From: Candidatus Schneewindia gallinarum
Lineage (GTDB): Bacteria; Bacillota; Clostridia; Oscillospirales; Ruminococcaceae
Length of the DNA: 64,000 bases
Assembly: GCA_904420175.1 (NCBI GenBank)
Contig: CAJFUF010000007.1
Location: 1 to 64,000, forward strand
Reading direction: 5' to 3'
Shown: piece after piece, positions 25,048 through 30,197 of the stretch
Position numbering within the stretch: position 1 is the stretch's first letter
Layout of the letters: each line of letters opens with the position of its first letter
Position numbers and translations under genes: made by a program
The notes under the pieces: generated by a model
The model's database searches: none
What the model was told of the DNA's origin: nothing
Seen by the model: only the letters and a program-made list of their open reading frames with translations

Positions 25048-25094
25048 AAAAAGAAGTGGACGGAAGGCCTGTCCATTCCGTCCACTTCTTTTTT
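25048..25094 (-). terminator. Intrinsic terminator after the acyl-CoA synthetase
   Basis: A long inverted repeat (AAAAAGAAGTGGACGGAA with its complement, ten-base loop) starts at the stop codon of the AMP-ligase gene. It ends in a T-run on either strand. Confidence 0.85.
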
Positions 25095-26739
25095 ACTGGT
25101 CCTTCTTTTCCCGGATGGCAACCCGGCGAATCTTTCCGCTGATGGTTTTGGGCAGCTCATCCACAAACTCAATAATACGGGGGTATTTGTAAGGTGCAGT
25201 CAGGTTTTTCACATGGGTTTGAAGTTCCTTCACCAGCTCCTCGCTGGGCTCATAGCCACTGGTCAGAACAATGGTTGCCTTGACCACCTGCCCCCTGACC
25301 GGATGGGGTGCGCCGGTAATGGCGCAGTCCATGACAGCCGGGTGTTCCAGCAGGACGCTTTCAATTTCAAACGGTCCAATCCGGTAACCGGAAGACTTAA
25401 TAATATCGTCCTTGCGGCCCACATACCAGAAGTAGCCGTCCTCGTCACGCCATGCGGTGTCTCCGGTGTGGTAATAGCCGTCATGCCATACCTCGTCTGT
25501 TTTTTCCTGGTTGCGGTAATAGCCGATGAACAGTCCGACCTGCTTGCGGTCATCCACCTTAACAACAATTTCGCCCACCTCTCCGGGGGGCACTTCGTTG
25601 CCCTCATCGTCCACAAGGCTGATGCGGTACAGCGGGGATGGCTTGCCCATGGAGCCCGGCTTGGGTGTGGTTCCTGCAAGGTTGCCCAGCATCATTGTGG
25701 ACTCGCTCTGTCCGAAGCCCTCCATCAGGCTGAGGCCGGTAAACTCCTTAAATTTATTGAATACCTCGGGGTTCAGCGCCTCCCCTGCAATGGTGGCATA
25801 CTCCAGCGAGTCAAGATATCCCCCCTCAATTCCGGCCTTGATGAAGAAGCGGAAAATTGTGGGCGGCGCGCAGAAGGAGGTCACCTTGTGCCGCTTAATC
25901 GTCTCCAGCAGATCCTCCGGTACAAAGCGGTCGAAGTCATAGACAAACACGGCAGCCCCGGCGAACCACTGTCCGTAAATTTTGCCCCACGAGGCCTTTG
26001 CCCAACCGGTTTCCGCCACAGTCAGATGCAGGCTGTTCTCGTGCAGGTTCTGCCAAAATTTTGCAGTGATAATGTGCCCGATGGGATAGGTGAAGTCGTG
26101 CAGGGCCATTTTGGGGTAGCCCGTCGTCCCGGAGGTGAAGTACATCAACATGGGATCCGTCGCCTTGGTAACGCGGGGCAGCGGCGTGTCCGGCGACGCG
26201 TCCACCATGGCGTCAAAATCAATCCACCCCTCTCTGGTACCCCGGGCCAGCAGCTTGAATTCCAGCGTTTCACACTGGGACTCGGACTGCTCCACATGCT
26301 CTGCAATGTCACACTCCGCGCTGCATATCACGGCGCGGACGCTGGCGGCGTTCACACGGTAGATCACATCTTTCGCTGTCAGCTGGTTGGTAGCGGGGAT
26401 TGCAATGATACCAAGGCGATGCAGGGCCAGTACGGTATACCAGTACTGATAGTTGCGCTTTAATATCAGCATCACCGCGTCGCCTTTTTTTAGGCCCAGC
26501 GACTTTAGATAATTTGCGGTCTTGTTGCTTAAATCCCGCATCTCCCGGAAGGTAAAGGTTCGTTCTTCCCCTGCCACATTGCACCAGACAAGGGCGGTTT
26601 TGTCCGGCTCCAGCTCCGCAATTTTGTCCACGCAGTCATAGGCGAAGTTGAAATCCTCCGGATAGACCGGCTCGAAGTAGTTTAAAATCCCTTTTTTATT
26701 AAAGCCAATTTTGCAAAACTGCTTATAGATGTCCAGCAT
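25093..26739 (-). CDS. AMP-forming acyl-CoA synthetase
   Basis: The 548-residue protein is an ANL-superfamily ligase that activates a carboxylic acid to acyl-AMP and then to acyl-CoA. Motif A3 is MYFTSGTTGYPKM, A5 GFGQSE, A8 YVGRKDDIIKSSGYRIG, and the C-terminal catalytic lysine is in TISGKIRR. Length and motifs fit the short/medium-chain (AcsM-like) group, but the chain length or aromatic or branched nature of the acid cannot be read. It lies four bases after an XRE-cupin regulator, and both lie behind a T-box leader, so the acid may be connected with an amino acid. Confidence 0.9.
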   Translation of the reverse strand: MLDIYKQFCKIGFNKKGILNYFEPVYPEDFNFAYDCVDKIAELEPDKTALVWCNVAGEERTFTFREMRDLSNKTANYLKSLGLKKGDAVMLILKRNYQYWYTVLALHRLGIIAIPATNQLTAKDVIYRVNAASVRAVICSAECDIAEHVEQSESQCETLEFKLLARGTREGWIDFDAMVDASPDTPLPRVTKATDPMLMYFTSGTTGYPKMALHDFTYPIGHIITAKFWQNLHENSLHLTVAETGWAKASWGKIYGQWFAGAAVFVYDFDRFVPEDLLETIKRHKVTSFCAPPTIFRFFIKAGIEGGYLDSLEYATIAGEALNPEVFNKFKEFTGLSLMEGFGQSESTMMLGNLAGTTPKPGSMGKPSPLYRISLVDDEGNEVPPGEVGEIVVKVDDRKQVGLFIGYYRNQEKTDEVWHDGYYHTGDTAWRDEDGYFWYVGRKDDIIKSSGYRIGPFEIESVLLEHPAVMDCAITGAPHPVRGQVVKATIVLTSGYEPSEELVKELQTHVKNLTAPYKYPRIIEFVDELPKTISGKIRRVAIREKKDQ

Positions 26740-26743
26740 GTCT

Positions 26744-27331
26744 CTAACACTCCTTCAGCTTTTCCGGACGTTTCATGATGGCTGCAAGCAGAACGCAGTC
26801 CTCCCCGCCGGTGGCAATCATGCCGTGGTTGTTTCCCGACTCATAATAAATGGCGTCCCCCTCGTTGAGGATCTCTACGTTATCTCCAATAACGACTTTC
26901 AGCGACCCGCTTAAAATATAATCAAATTCCTGACCCTCATGGTGATTCAGCGGGATGGGCAGATTTTCTTCATTCGGATCATACGGGGCTGTGACAAGAA
27001 ACACCTCTGCAATTTTGTCCTTGAACAGCGGCGCCAGATGCCGGTAGATGAATCCCTTGCGCCGATCGATAGGCAGCCCCTTGCCCTTACGGGTAATGGT
27101 GTAGGAGGCAAGCTTCGGGTTATCGCCCGTAATCAGCTCAATGATGTCTACATGGAAAATAATGGCACATTTTGACAGGAAGGTGTAGGAAAAGTCCCTG
27201 TCACCCGACTCGTAGGAGGCATACTCCTCCTCACTGATGCCGAGTTCCCCTGCCATGTCTGCGTAGCTAAGACCCAATATCTCACGCAAATCCTTGATTC
27301 TTTCTGCAATTTCGGCAATTTGTGCTCCCAT
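26744..27331 (-). CDS. XRE-family regulator with C-terminal cupin domain
   Basis: This 195-residue protein has an XRE helix-turn-helix (about 9-63, including LGLSYADMAGELGISEEEYA) joined to a single cupin barrel (about 120-185, with HHEGQEFDYILSG and NNHGMIA). Such proteins act as ligand-sensing repressors or activators of the adjacent genes. The start at 27331 is chosen because GGAGG lies about eight bases ahead. It is first in the T-box-controlled unit, followed four bases later by the acyl-CoA synthetase. The ligand is not known; an acyl product or the acid itself is plausible. Confidence 0.9.
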   Translation of the reverse strand: MGAQIAEIAERIKDLREILGLSYADMAGELGISEEEYASYESGDRDFSYTFLSKCAIIFHVDIIELITGDNPKLASYTITRKGKGLPIDRRKGFIYRHLAPLFKDKIAEVFLVTAPYDPNEENLPIPLNHHEGQEFDYILSGSLKVVIGDNVEILNEGDAIYYESGNNHGMIATGGEDCVLLAAIMKRPEKLKEC

Positions 27332-27389
27332 TTTCTGTTCCTCCTTCAAAATATGGCTTTCGGCCCGGACGGGCCCATTTGTTCGGGAC

Positions 27390-27424
27390 AAAAAAATAAC
27401 TCGTCCCTGAAAACAGGGACGAGT
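27390..27424 (-). terminator. T-box terminator
   Basis: The minus strand forms ACTCGTCCCTG-TTTT-CAGGGACGAGT, an 11-bp perfect stem followed by TATTTTTTT. It sits directly after the T-box antiterminator sequence and is the off-state of the switch in front of the XRE-cupin gene. Confidence 0.93.
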
Positions 27425-27650
27425 CTACTTTACAGTATTCCCGCGGTACCACCCACGTTGCCTTTCGGCCACCTCACAGAGTTCCAACAAACCCCTGATC
27501 CTAACGCGATCTCACGGGCGCACCTACTTGTTTTACCGTTCAGCTGCCAGCTCGGAAGCGACAAGTCACGGACTGCCCTGCCGGCTTGCACCAACCGCCG
27601 GTTCTCTGTGAAAGGCCTTCACATGAATATTCTTCGTCATAGCCATTGCT
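27390..27650 (-). ncRNA. T-box riboswitch leader
   Basis: The minus strand carries the highly conserved T-box sequence TGGGTGGTACCGCGG (27441-27455) directly before an intrinsic terminator. Upstream are Stem I landmarks: CAGAGA, the distal loop GGTTGGTGCAAGCC, CCGAGCTG, CTGAAC and AAGTAGG, then CGCGTTA. A T-box binds uncharged tRNA and allows read-through. The specifier triplet is uncertain: GGT follows CTGAAC directly, GTA lies one base later, and AAC lies just before AAGTAGG. The region fills the 324-base gap between the gph and XRE-cupin genes. Confidence 0.94.
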
Positions 27651-27652
27651 TA

Positions 27653-27682
27653 TTATTATCCACGATTTTGTGTGTTTGTCAA
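27653..27682 (-). promoter_or_regulatory. Promoter of the T-box operon
   Basis: On the minus strand a perfect TTGACA (27677-27682) lies 17-18 bases from ATAATA/TAATAA (27653-27659). It overlaps the last codons of the gph gene and starts a transcript that begins with the T-box. Confidence 0.82.
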
Positions 27683-28324
27683 GATGTTTTCAAAAAATTT
27701 TTCCAGTTCGGCCGGGGTGTCAAAAATATAATCCGCCTTCTGCTGCTCCAGCACCGACCGGTCGCGGTAACCGTAGGAGACGCCCAGCACCGTCAGGCCC
27801 GCGTTCTGCGCGGTCTGCACATCCACCTCCGAGTCGCCCACGAAATACGCCTCCCCTTTCGTCACATCAAGCCGCTGCAGCATCTCGTTTACAAGAAAGG
27901 GGTCCGGTTTTCTCGGCACGCCGTCCCGCTGGCCGCTTATTAAATCGAAGGTATCCTTCCCGTACAGCGTCTGCACCACCTTGTGTGTAAAGGCGTTCGG
28001 TTTGTTGCTGACCACGCCGCAGCGGATCCCGTGCGCCTTTAAAAAAAGCACCAGTTCTTTCATCCCGCTGTATGCCTTTGTCCTTACGCAGCAGTGTTCA
28101 TCGTAGTAGGTGTTGAAGTCCCTTTTTACCCGGTCAAAGTACGACTGATCCGGAATAAGTTTGTTGATTAGGACGTCAATGCCATTGCCCACGCGCTGTG
28201 CAAATTCCTCATCCGTAAAGGTCGGAAGCCCCGCCTGTCTCAGGGCGAAGTTTCCACTGTCGGCAAGGTCGCCGATAGAGTCCACCAACGTTCCGTCCAA
28301 ATCAAAAAGCACCGCCTTTAACAT
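27656..28324 (-). CDS. HAD-family phosphatase, phosphoglycolate-phosphatase type
   Basis: The 222-residue protein has the HAD motifs: I FDLDGTLVDS (nucleophile Asp8 and Asp10), II VSNKP and IV VGDSEVD, with a helical cap between I and II. Its form matches Gph/PgmB-type phosphatases, which act on 2-phosphoglycolate or small sugar phosphates; exact substrate is inference. It is placed after the split transketolase, separated by a strong terminator. Its 3' end contains the T-box operon promoter. Confidence 0.88.
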   Translation of the reverse strand: MLKAVLFDLDGTLVDSIGDLADSGNFALRQAGLPTFTDEEFAQRVGNGIDVLINKLIPDQSYFDRVKRDFNTYYDEHCCVRTKAYSGMKELVLFLKAHGIRCGVVSNKPNAFTHKVVQTLYGKDTFDLISGQRDGVPRKPDPFLVNEMLQRLDVTKGEAYFVGDSEVDVQTAQNAGLTVLGVSYGYRDRSVLEQQKADYIFDTPAELEKFFENILTNTQNRG

Positions 28325-28392: not shown

Positions 28393-29343
28393 TTATTTCT
28401 TTAAGGAAATCGCCTGCTTTGCCTTTTCCGCAATCTTCTCCGCTGTCAGACCGAAGTACTTAAGCAGCTCCACAGCGGGACCGGACTTGCCAAAGGTGTC
28501 ATAGTTGCCAAGACGGACAACCGGCACCGGGCAGACCTCGCACACGGTCTCTGCAACCGCGCCGCCCAGGCCGCCGATAATGCTGTGCTCCTCCGCGGTA
28601 ACAATGGCGCCCGTCTCCTTCGCCGCTTTGATAACCAGCTCGGTATCCAGCGGTTTGATGGTATGGATGTTGATGACGCGCGCATTGATGCCGTCCTTCT
28701 CCAGCAGCTTCGCGGCCTCGACTGCTTCGTTGACCATCAGGCCTGTGGCGATAATGGTCACATCCGTGCCGTCCTTTAACGTGATGCCCTTGCCAAGCTC
28801 AAACTTGTAGGTGCTCTCATCATTGAAAATGGGGCAGGCAAGCCGGCCAAAACGCAGATAGACCGGGCCGTTGTAATTGATGGCAGCCTCGACCGCCGCC
28901 TTCGCCTCCACATAGTCGGCGGGGTTGATGATGGTCATGCCAGGGATGGTCCGCATCAGCGCGATATCCTCGTTGCACTGATGGGTCGCGCCGTCCTCAC
29001 CGACGGAGACGCCGGCATGGGTTGCGCCGATTTTAACATTCAGGTGGGGGTAACCGATGGTGTTACGCACCTGCTCGAACGCACGGCCTGCTGCAAACAT
29101 CGCAAAGGTGCTGGCAAAAGGAATGAAGCCCTCCGTGGAAAGGCCTGCTGCAACACCCATCAGGTTCGCCTCGGCAATGCCGCAGTCGAAGAACCGCTCG
29201 GGAAATGCGTTTTTGAAAGTAATGGTCATGGTCGCCTTTGCAAGGTCGGCGTCCAAAACCACCAGTTTATCATATTTTGCGCCAAGCTCGGCCAGCGCGT
29301 CGCCATAGGCCTGTCTTGTTGCCTTCTTTACTACTTCAGCCAT
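28393..29343 (-). CDS. Transketolase, C-terminal subunit
   Basis: The 316-residue protein is the pyrimidine-binding and C-terminal half of transketolase. It has the family's DADLAKATMT and GVSVGEDGATHQ motifs, including the conserved Glu region for cofactor activation, and the C-terminal domain ending EHSIIGGLGGAVAE. It works with the separate N-terminal subunit encoded two bases upstream. In anaerobes without oxidative pentose phosphate steps, this enzyme makes ribose 5-phosphate and erythrose 4-phosphate for nucleotides and aromatic amino acids. Confidence 0.93.
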   Translation of the reverse strand: MAEVVKKATRQAYGDALAELGAKYDKLVVLDADLAKATMTITFKNAFPERFFDCGIAEANLMGVAAGLSTEGFIPFASTFAMFAAGRAFEQVRNTIGYPHLNVKIGATHAGVSVGEDGATHQCNEDIALMRTIPGMTIINPADYVEAKAAVEAAINYNGPVYLRFGRLACPIFNDESTYKFELGKGITLKDGTDVTIIATGLMVNEAVEAAKLLEKDGINARVINIHTIKPLDTELVIKAAKETGAIVTAEEHSIIGGLGGAVAETVCEVCPVPVVRLGNYDTFGKSGPAVELLKYFGLTAEKIAEKAKQAISLKK

Positions 29344-29345
29344 GG

Positions 29346-30197
29346 TTATTTCGCCTCCTTGTTAATGCTTTCCTCAATCGCGTCAAGATCGCTCATGGCC
29401 TGGGCGAACTGCTCGTCGTTGGGAGCAGCGCCATGCCAGGAGGCCTGATCCTCCATAAAGGAAACGCCCTTGCCCTTGATGGTCTTCTGAATGATGACCG
29501 TGGGCTTGCCCTTTGTTGCCCGCGCCTCATTAAAGGCCTTCTCAATCTCATCAAAGTTGTGCCCATCGATGGAAATGACATGCCAGCCAAACGCCGCAAA
29601 TTTATCGGTGATAGGCTCAGGATCGTTGACCTCGGTCACACGGCCGTCAATCTGCAGGCCGTTGTTGTCCACAACTGCGCACAGGTTGTCAAGCTTCTTG
29701 GCAGCCGCAAACATCGCAGCCTCCCAGACCTGGCCCTCCTGGATTTCGCCGTCGCCCAGCACGGTGTAAATACGGTGATCCGCGCCCTTCAGCTTCGCGC
29801 CGAGTGCCATGCCGCAAGCGGTGGAGATGCCCTGGCCGAGAGAACCGGAGCTCATATCCACGCCGGGGGTTCCCTTCATGTCGGGGTGGCCCTGAAGCAT
29901 GGCGCCCACCTTACGCAGCTTTAACAGCTCCTCACGGGGGAAGTAGCCCCGCAGGGAAAGAACGGAGTACAGCGCCGGGCAGGTGTGGCCCTTGGACAGC
30001 ACCAGACGGTCGCGATCCTCCTTCTTCGGCTCCTTCGGGTCGATATTCATCTCTTTAAAATAGAGATAGGTAAGGGTATCCGCAACGGACAAAGAGCCGC
30101 CCGGATGACCAGACTTTGCGCTGTGAACTGCTTCCACGACGCCGCGACGGACTTCGTTGGCTTTCAGTTTCAGCTCTTTTCTCGTATCAAAATCCAT
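29346..30197 (-). CDS. Transketolase, N-terminal subunit
   Basis: The 283-residue protein carries the thiamine-diphosphate binding half of transketolase. Motifs visible are SAKSGHPGGSLS, LVLSKGHTCPALY, and the TPP/metal motif GDGEIQEGQVWEAAMFA with NNGLQIDG. Together with the next gene it equals one full-length transketolase; the split form is common in Clostridia and archaea. The SD GGAGGAG precedes the ATG. It lies 41 bases after a HAD-IIB phosphatase. Confidence 0.94.
   Translation of the reverse strand: MDFDTRKELKLKANEVRRGVVEAVHSAKSGHPGGSLSVADTLTYLYFKEMNIDPKEPKKEDRDRLVLSKGHTCPALYSVLSLRGYFPREELLKLRKVGAMLQGHPDMKGTPGVDMSSGSLGQGISTACGMALGAKLKGADHRIYTVLGDGEIQEGQVWEAAMFAAAKKLDNLCAVVDNNGLQIDGRVTEVNDPEPITDKFAAFGWHVISIDGHNFDEIEKAFNEARATKGKPTVIIQKTIKGKGVSFMEDQASWHGAAPNDEQFAQAMSDLDAIEESINKEAK

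Follow-up and report, generated by a model that had tools for sequence, protein, structure and literature searches.

In the window (the whole 64,000-nucleotide stretch of DNA that was analysed), positions 27390-27682 of the minus strand hold a promoter, a complete T-box leader and a terminator, which precede the genes for an XRE-cupin regulator and an AMP-forming acyl-CoA ligase. The ligase gene begins 4 nt past the stop codon of the XRE-cupin gene. A first-pass annotation of this DNA had described a T-box leader with an antiterminator sequence, a terminator and a TTGACA promoter, and an XRE-cupin regulator and acyl-CoA synthetase downstream; all of these are present, and the interval that it gave, 27331-27682, runs exactly from the promoter to the start codon. 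The features are the following:

27655..27682, minus strand: promoter, with TTGACA at 27682-27677, a 16 nt spacer and GATAAT at 27660-27655, read from the sequence
27412..27649, minus strand: T-box leader from stem I to antiterminator, RF00230, 81.9 bits, E 3.3e-18
27607-27603, minus strand: AGAGA motif, read from the sequence
27596-27589, minus strand: GGUUGGUG, read from the sequence
27560..27562, minus strand: specifier GUC (valine), followed by G and CUUCCGAGC
27440..27454, minus strand: T-box core GGGUGGUACCGCGGG, with a UGGU bulge complementary to the ACCA of tRNA-Val
27390..27425, minus strand: intrinsic terminator, a 12-bp hairpin of -22.0 kcal/mol with U7
27345-27340, minus strand: Shine-Dalgarno sequence AGGAGG of the XRE-cupin gene, read from the sequence
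26744..27331, minus strand: XRE-cupin regulator, 195 aa, with HTH_3 and Cupin_2 above the Pfam cut-offs
25093..26739, minus strand: AMP-forming acyl-CoA ligase, 548 aa, with PF00501 and PF13193, and Ala247 in the TGW(G/A)KA motif

The T-box leader and its specifier

A covariance-model search, which had been proposed as a check on the leader, matched it to the whole of the Rfam model (RF00230, model positions 1-219). The score is below the gathering score of 93 bits, so the leader gives no match in a default Rfam scan and is visible by an E-value scan only. Three other leaders of this genome score even lower with the same model: 76.8 bits before thrS, 73.8 before pheST and 64.6 before alaS. The shortfall is thus usual in this genome, and the score by itself speaks neither clearly for nor clearly against membership. 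Stem I carries AGAGA and GGUG motifs and a specifier loop, and the UGGU bulge fits an A73 discriminator. The terminator hairpin and the antiterminator have the sequence CGUCCC in common, which makes the two structures mutually exclusive. Most homologous leaders are preceded by a similar promoter arrangement. The 3' end of a HAD phosphatase gene (27656-28324, minus strand) overlaps the T-box promoter, with its stop codon near the -10 element. Adjoining the locus (28393-30197, minus strand), transketolase is encoded as two neighbouring genes, for the N- and C-terminal halves.

The specifier was absent from the first-pass annotation and was assigned in the present analysis, by a rule that reads three bases, which are followed by a single base and the 3' strand of the closing stem of the specifier loop. 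GUC is in exact register with the 82 homologous leaders (AUC A CUUCCGAGC, GUA A CUUCC). Nine further T-boxes were found in the same genome, among which the same rule reads Trp UGG, Cys UGC, Leu CUC, Thr ACC, Phe UUC and Asp GAC. The genes behind them, with functions read from their sequences, fit these assignments: a tryptophan-type binding protein, cysE/cysS, leuA, thrS, pheST and hisS, the last of which, behind the Asp-type T-box, was taken as a hisS-aspS pair. Additionally, the genome has a tRNA-Val(GAC) gene (locus L187) with A73 and the end ...CGTCCACCA, and the ACCA acceptor end of this tRNA is complementary to the UGGU bulge. The leader is best read as a valine-specific, transcription-terminating T-box with a predicted response to tRNA. 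Two side observations concern the other T-boxes of this genome. On contig 15, an AUC (Ile) T-box (L002 1501-1756) precedes a gene for a CstA-family peptide/pyruvate transporter (L206 1272-3134; 471 bits). On contig 8, a match to the streptococcal sRNA SpF59 (L008 2000-2052, plus strand; Rfam, 69.1 bits against a cut-off of 37.2) lies upstream of the pheST T-box on the opposite strand, in a genome that is not streptococcal.

Alignment of the leader and its genes across relatives, likewise suggested earlier, gave 83 T-boxes before XRE-cupin/ligase genes, the window included: 69 AUC (Ile), 13 GUA (Val) and one GUC, which was seen in the window only. None of these 83 leaders has a specifier for a third amino acid. 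Manual comparison with homologues settled seven specifiers whose automatic call was doubtful or off register; the specifiers read by hand include those of L124, L155 and L158 and the second ones of L204, L207 and L208. Ruminococcus flavefaciens (L076) and a cultured Angelakisella (L017) are in the set. The first-pass annotation had named homologous leaders before a now-lost synthetase gene as a finding that would speak against its proposal. An origin of the leader as the remnant of a lost synthetase is rejected, as all 83 leaders precede regulator/ligase genes.

Ligase kinship and branched-chain genes

The closest solved relative of the ligase is Macs (3ETC), at 700.6 bits over residues 20-546, and the next scores 432.5 bits. 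Macs of Methanosarcina acetivorans prefers 2-methylbutyrate (PMC10455477). The top NCBIfam match is NF047394 (MbcS), at 478.6 bits, which misses the curated cut-off of 850. Staphylococcus MbcS accepts 2-methylbutyrate and isobutyrate, but isovalerate hardly at all (PMC10026030), and this preference mirrors the presence of Ile and Val, and of no Leu, among the specifiers.

IlvB, IlvC and IlvD were not found in the genome, and neither was Bkd E1, for which the weak matches include the window transketolase gene; as the assembly is a MAG of 87% completeness, each of these absences alone is weak. The genome does have consecutive genes for the VOR subunits alpha, beta and gamma (552 bits for the VorB subfamily, whose cut-off is 399), a gene for a branched-chain aminotransferase (505 bits), and leuA under the Leu T-box. 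Its ligase and VOR genes are not adjacent. In one relative (G043, L204), the gene order is Ile T-box, fused ligase, Val T-box, fused ligase, NTPase, VOR alpha-beta-gamma, IlvE, Leu T-box and leuA, and much of this gene set is also present in L201-L203. The G043 locus reads as the predicted reductive carboxylation route plus its regulation. The NTPase is small, CobQ/ParA-like and of the P-loop type, has weak Pfam matches only, and lies beside VOR in the genome of the window and in relatives (L198 7804-8490, L204 8359-9033, L203 7722-8384).

Ruminococci and other gut anaerobes use branched-chain volatile fatty acids as growth factors and carboxylate them to form valine, leucine and isoleucine, and this reductive carboxylation has been known physiologically since the 1960s. 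In the rumen, 2-methylbutyrate is a precursor of isoleucine and isobutyrate a precursor of valine (PMC7356843). Across 295 genomes of the order, at least two ligases are present in 103 of the 153 genomes without KARI, compared with 17 of the 142 with KARI (Fisher p 3e-23). The association holds within families (194 ligase-bearing genomes; family-stratified Mantel-Haenszel OR 7.3, p 1.8e-8). When T-box presence was set against KARI loss by independent pairs on the ligase tree, the trend had the same direction, but the roughly four informative pairs are too few for it to be significant. Twelve T-box ligases are in KARI-bearing genomes.

The first-pass annotation had proposed that amino-acid starvation induces the activation of an acid for reductive carboxylation. 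This idea is now well supported, as judged from gene content and leader sequences: the specifiers are for Val and Ile, the ligase is akin to Macs, the genome has VOR, an aminotransferase and leuA whereas IlvB, IlvC and IlvD were not found in it, and T-box ligases of relatives lie directly before VOR and aminotransferase genes. Its choice of a branched-chain, aromatic or other acid can be narrowed to the branched-chain kind, with isobutyrate predicted for the window ligase.

A different use of the same acids deserves weighing. If the ligase salvaged branched acids as membrane-lipid primers, as MbcS does, then a T-box could be in place because valine and isoleucine are the usual source of such primers. 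In Staphylococcus, MbcS supplies lipid synthesis with activated 2-methylbutyrate and isobutyrate (PMC10026030), its family gives the top NCBIfam match, and the failure to find Bkd in the genome is in keeping with this reading. However, the 478.6 bits of that match are far under the MbcS cut-off, and T-boxes signal amino-acid charging rather than a need for lipid. In relatives, moreover, the ligases adjoin VOR and aminotransferase genes, and ligase copy number tracks loss of the IlvC pathway. A lipid role in place of the amino-acid route is thus unlikely, although the two uses can coexist.

Specifier changes and residue 247 on the ligase tree

The genome of the window has a second copy of the system on contig 13 (L155); its T-box reads AUC, and its regulator and ligase are joined in one 758-residue protein. 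Such fused XRE-cupin-ligases group together on the ligase tree, where a single change between the split and fused forms is needed. The window ligase is placed among split, AUC-type ligases (support 90), and its Val specifier therefore arose separately from the GUA ones. In all, three changes between Ile and Val specifiers are needed on the tree. The nearest relative on the tree, from Candidatus Soleaferrea massiliensis (L011 2954-3240), has an intact stem I and an AUC specifier, with no recognisable T-box core before its terminator; decay, rearrangement or an assembly fault may account for this. Elsewhere on the tree are split XRE-cupin/ligase pairs without a T-box (L199 5149-7384, L200 428-3345). 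The L200 pair sits directly after an oxidoreductase gamma gene, and its ligase perhaps takes a different acid.

Residue 247 (window numbering) adjoins the Trp of the TGW motif. Alanine is present here in the window ligase and in 10 of the 10 GUA-type ligases on the tree, compared with 0 of 67 AUC-type ligases (64 Gly, 3 Met), and Gly247Ala accompanies each of the three Ile-to-Val specifier switches; with three events only, this coincidence cannot reach formal significance. Ala247 was found too in 14 ligases without a T-box. When all Val/Ile-discriminating columns are considered, convergence is not unusual overall (window 5/37, rank 15/158, and 2/76 among split ligases), and site 247 is the only column that stands out cleanly. 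Ala247 may narrow the pocket for a shorter acid. The repeated retuning from Ile to Val offers a natural experiment on the co-evolution of riboswitch and enzyme.

These comparisons also bear on the specifier of the window itself, which comes from one MAG only. Given that 69 of the 83 homologous leaders read AUC and that the nearest ligases on the tree are AUC-type, the T-box could be of the Ile type, with a first specifier base that has drifted or was mis-sequenced (AUC to GUC), or it could answer both tRNAs. Yet a separate AUC copy (L155) is present in the same genome, the GUA copies of other genomes demonstrate that a Val class exists, and the window ligase shares its Ala247 with all GUA-type and none of the 67 AUC-type ligases. 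An Ile-type or dual assignment is therefore very improbable.

Proposed mechanism and comparison with known systems

Overall, the best explanation, to which we assign a probability of about 0.8, is a T-box that responds to valine starvation and governs an isobutyrate ligase, whose product would pass through VOR and an aminotransferase to valine. Uncharged tRNA-Val(GAC) would pair with GUC through its anticodon and with the UGGU bulge through its ACCA end, the antiterminator would form, and the XRE-cupin and ligase genes would be transcribed. The ligase would then convert isobutyrate, supplied by the gut community, to isobutyryl-CoA, which VOR and reduced ferredoxin would turn into 2-oxoisovalerate by reductive carboxylation, and the branched-chain aminotransferase would yield valine. 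Part of the predicted flux could also lead from 2-oxoisovalerate via leuA to leucine. The second copy, with its Ile T-box and fused XRE-cupin-ligase, would take 2-methylbutyrate to isoleucine by a similar route. That VOR, ligase and aminotransferase instead work catabolically, from valine to isobutyrate, can be virtually dismissed: VOR and acyl-CoA synthetases do run in that direction in peptide-fermenting archaea, but this ligase is AMP-forming, not ADP-forming, so that no ATP would be conserved on release of the acid, and a T-box induces its genes upon shortage of the amino acid, the opposite of a catabolic signal.

The regulator combines HTH and cupin domains and its gene adjoins that of a metabolic enzyme, as is typical of XRE-cupin repressors; it is probably a locally acting repressor, with the acid or its CoA ester as the signal sensed. 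XRE-cupin proteins of Pseudomonas repress neighbouring genes until a precursor is sensed (PMC7901475), and a similar precursor gate is thus plausible at the window locus. More tentatively, the XRE-cupin-ligase, whether fused or as a complex of the split pair, might be a BirA-like bifunctional enzyme-repressor in which specifier and pocket have shifted jointly from Ile to Val on three or more occasions. The adenylate-forming enzyme would in that case signal acyl-adenylate or acyl-CoA status to its own DNA-binding domain. With the enzyme sensing the precursor and the T-box sensing charged tRNA, one transcript would integrate supply and demand. We regard this extension as doubtful, though compatible with the evidence.

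The riboswitch class, the enzyme class and the physiology are already known, and what appears new is the link among them. No T-box/acyl-CoA-ligase link was found in the T-box papers that were read or by literature search, and priority for the link is not certain. Candidate genes and their regulation can now be proposed for branched-acid carboxylation, so far known only physiologically, with which the window system would agree in its predicted chemistry and ecology. Additionally, the substrates of this ligase family cannot be told from sequence, a gap that the specifiers would fill: each would name the product amino acid of its ligase copy and thus be a ready-made annotation. Because the set includes Ruminococcus flavefaciens and the cultured Angelakisella, the prediction lends itself to direct tests; it is also relevant to cross-feeding in the rumen and gut.

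Each part of the proposed system has known counterparts. Macs and the window ligase alike have Gly where Acs has its pocket Trp, but Macs is archaeal, no XRE-cupin partner of it is known here, and the substrate of the window ligase is a prediction. MbcS of Staphylococcus aureus belongs to the same superfamily and is a more distant relative; its substrates match the Ile and Val specifiers, whereas it feeds membrane lipids, its paper mentions no T-box, and the window ligase scores below the MbcS cut-off. ErfA, PsdR and PauR of Pseudomonas (PMC7901475) resemble the window regulator in domain make-up and in position beside a metabolic enzyme; unlike them, the window regulator is controlled by a T-box, and in an entire clade, to which the second copy of its own genome belongs, the regulator is fused to the enzyme. 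Similarly, the window leader shares its anatomy and specifier logic with the Ile, Val and Leu T-boxes that precede synthetases and ilv/leu genes, and in all of these the target is the supply of the cognate amino acid. The known T-boxes, however, govern a synthetase, a transporter or an ilv/leu gene, whereas that of the window governs the acyl-CoA ligase of a predicted reductive-carboxylation route.
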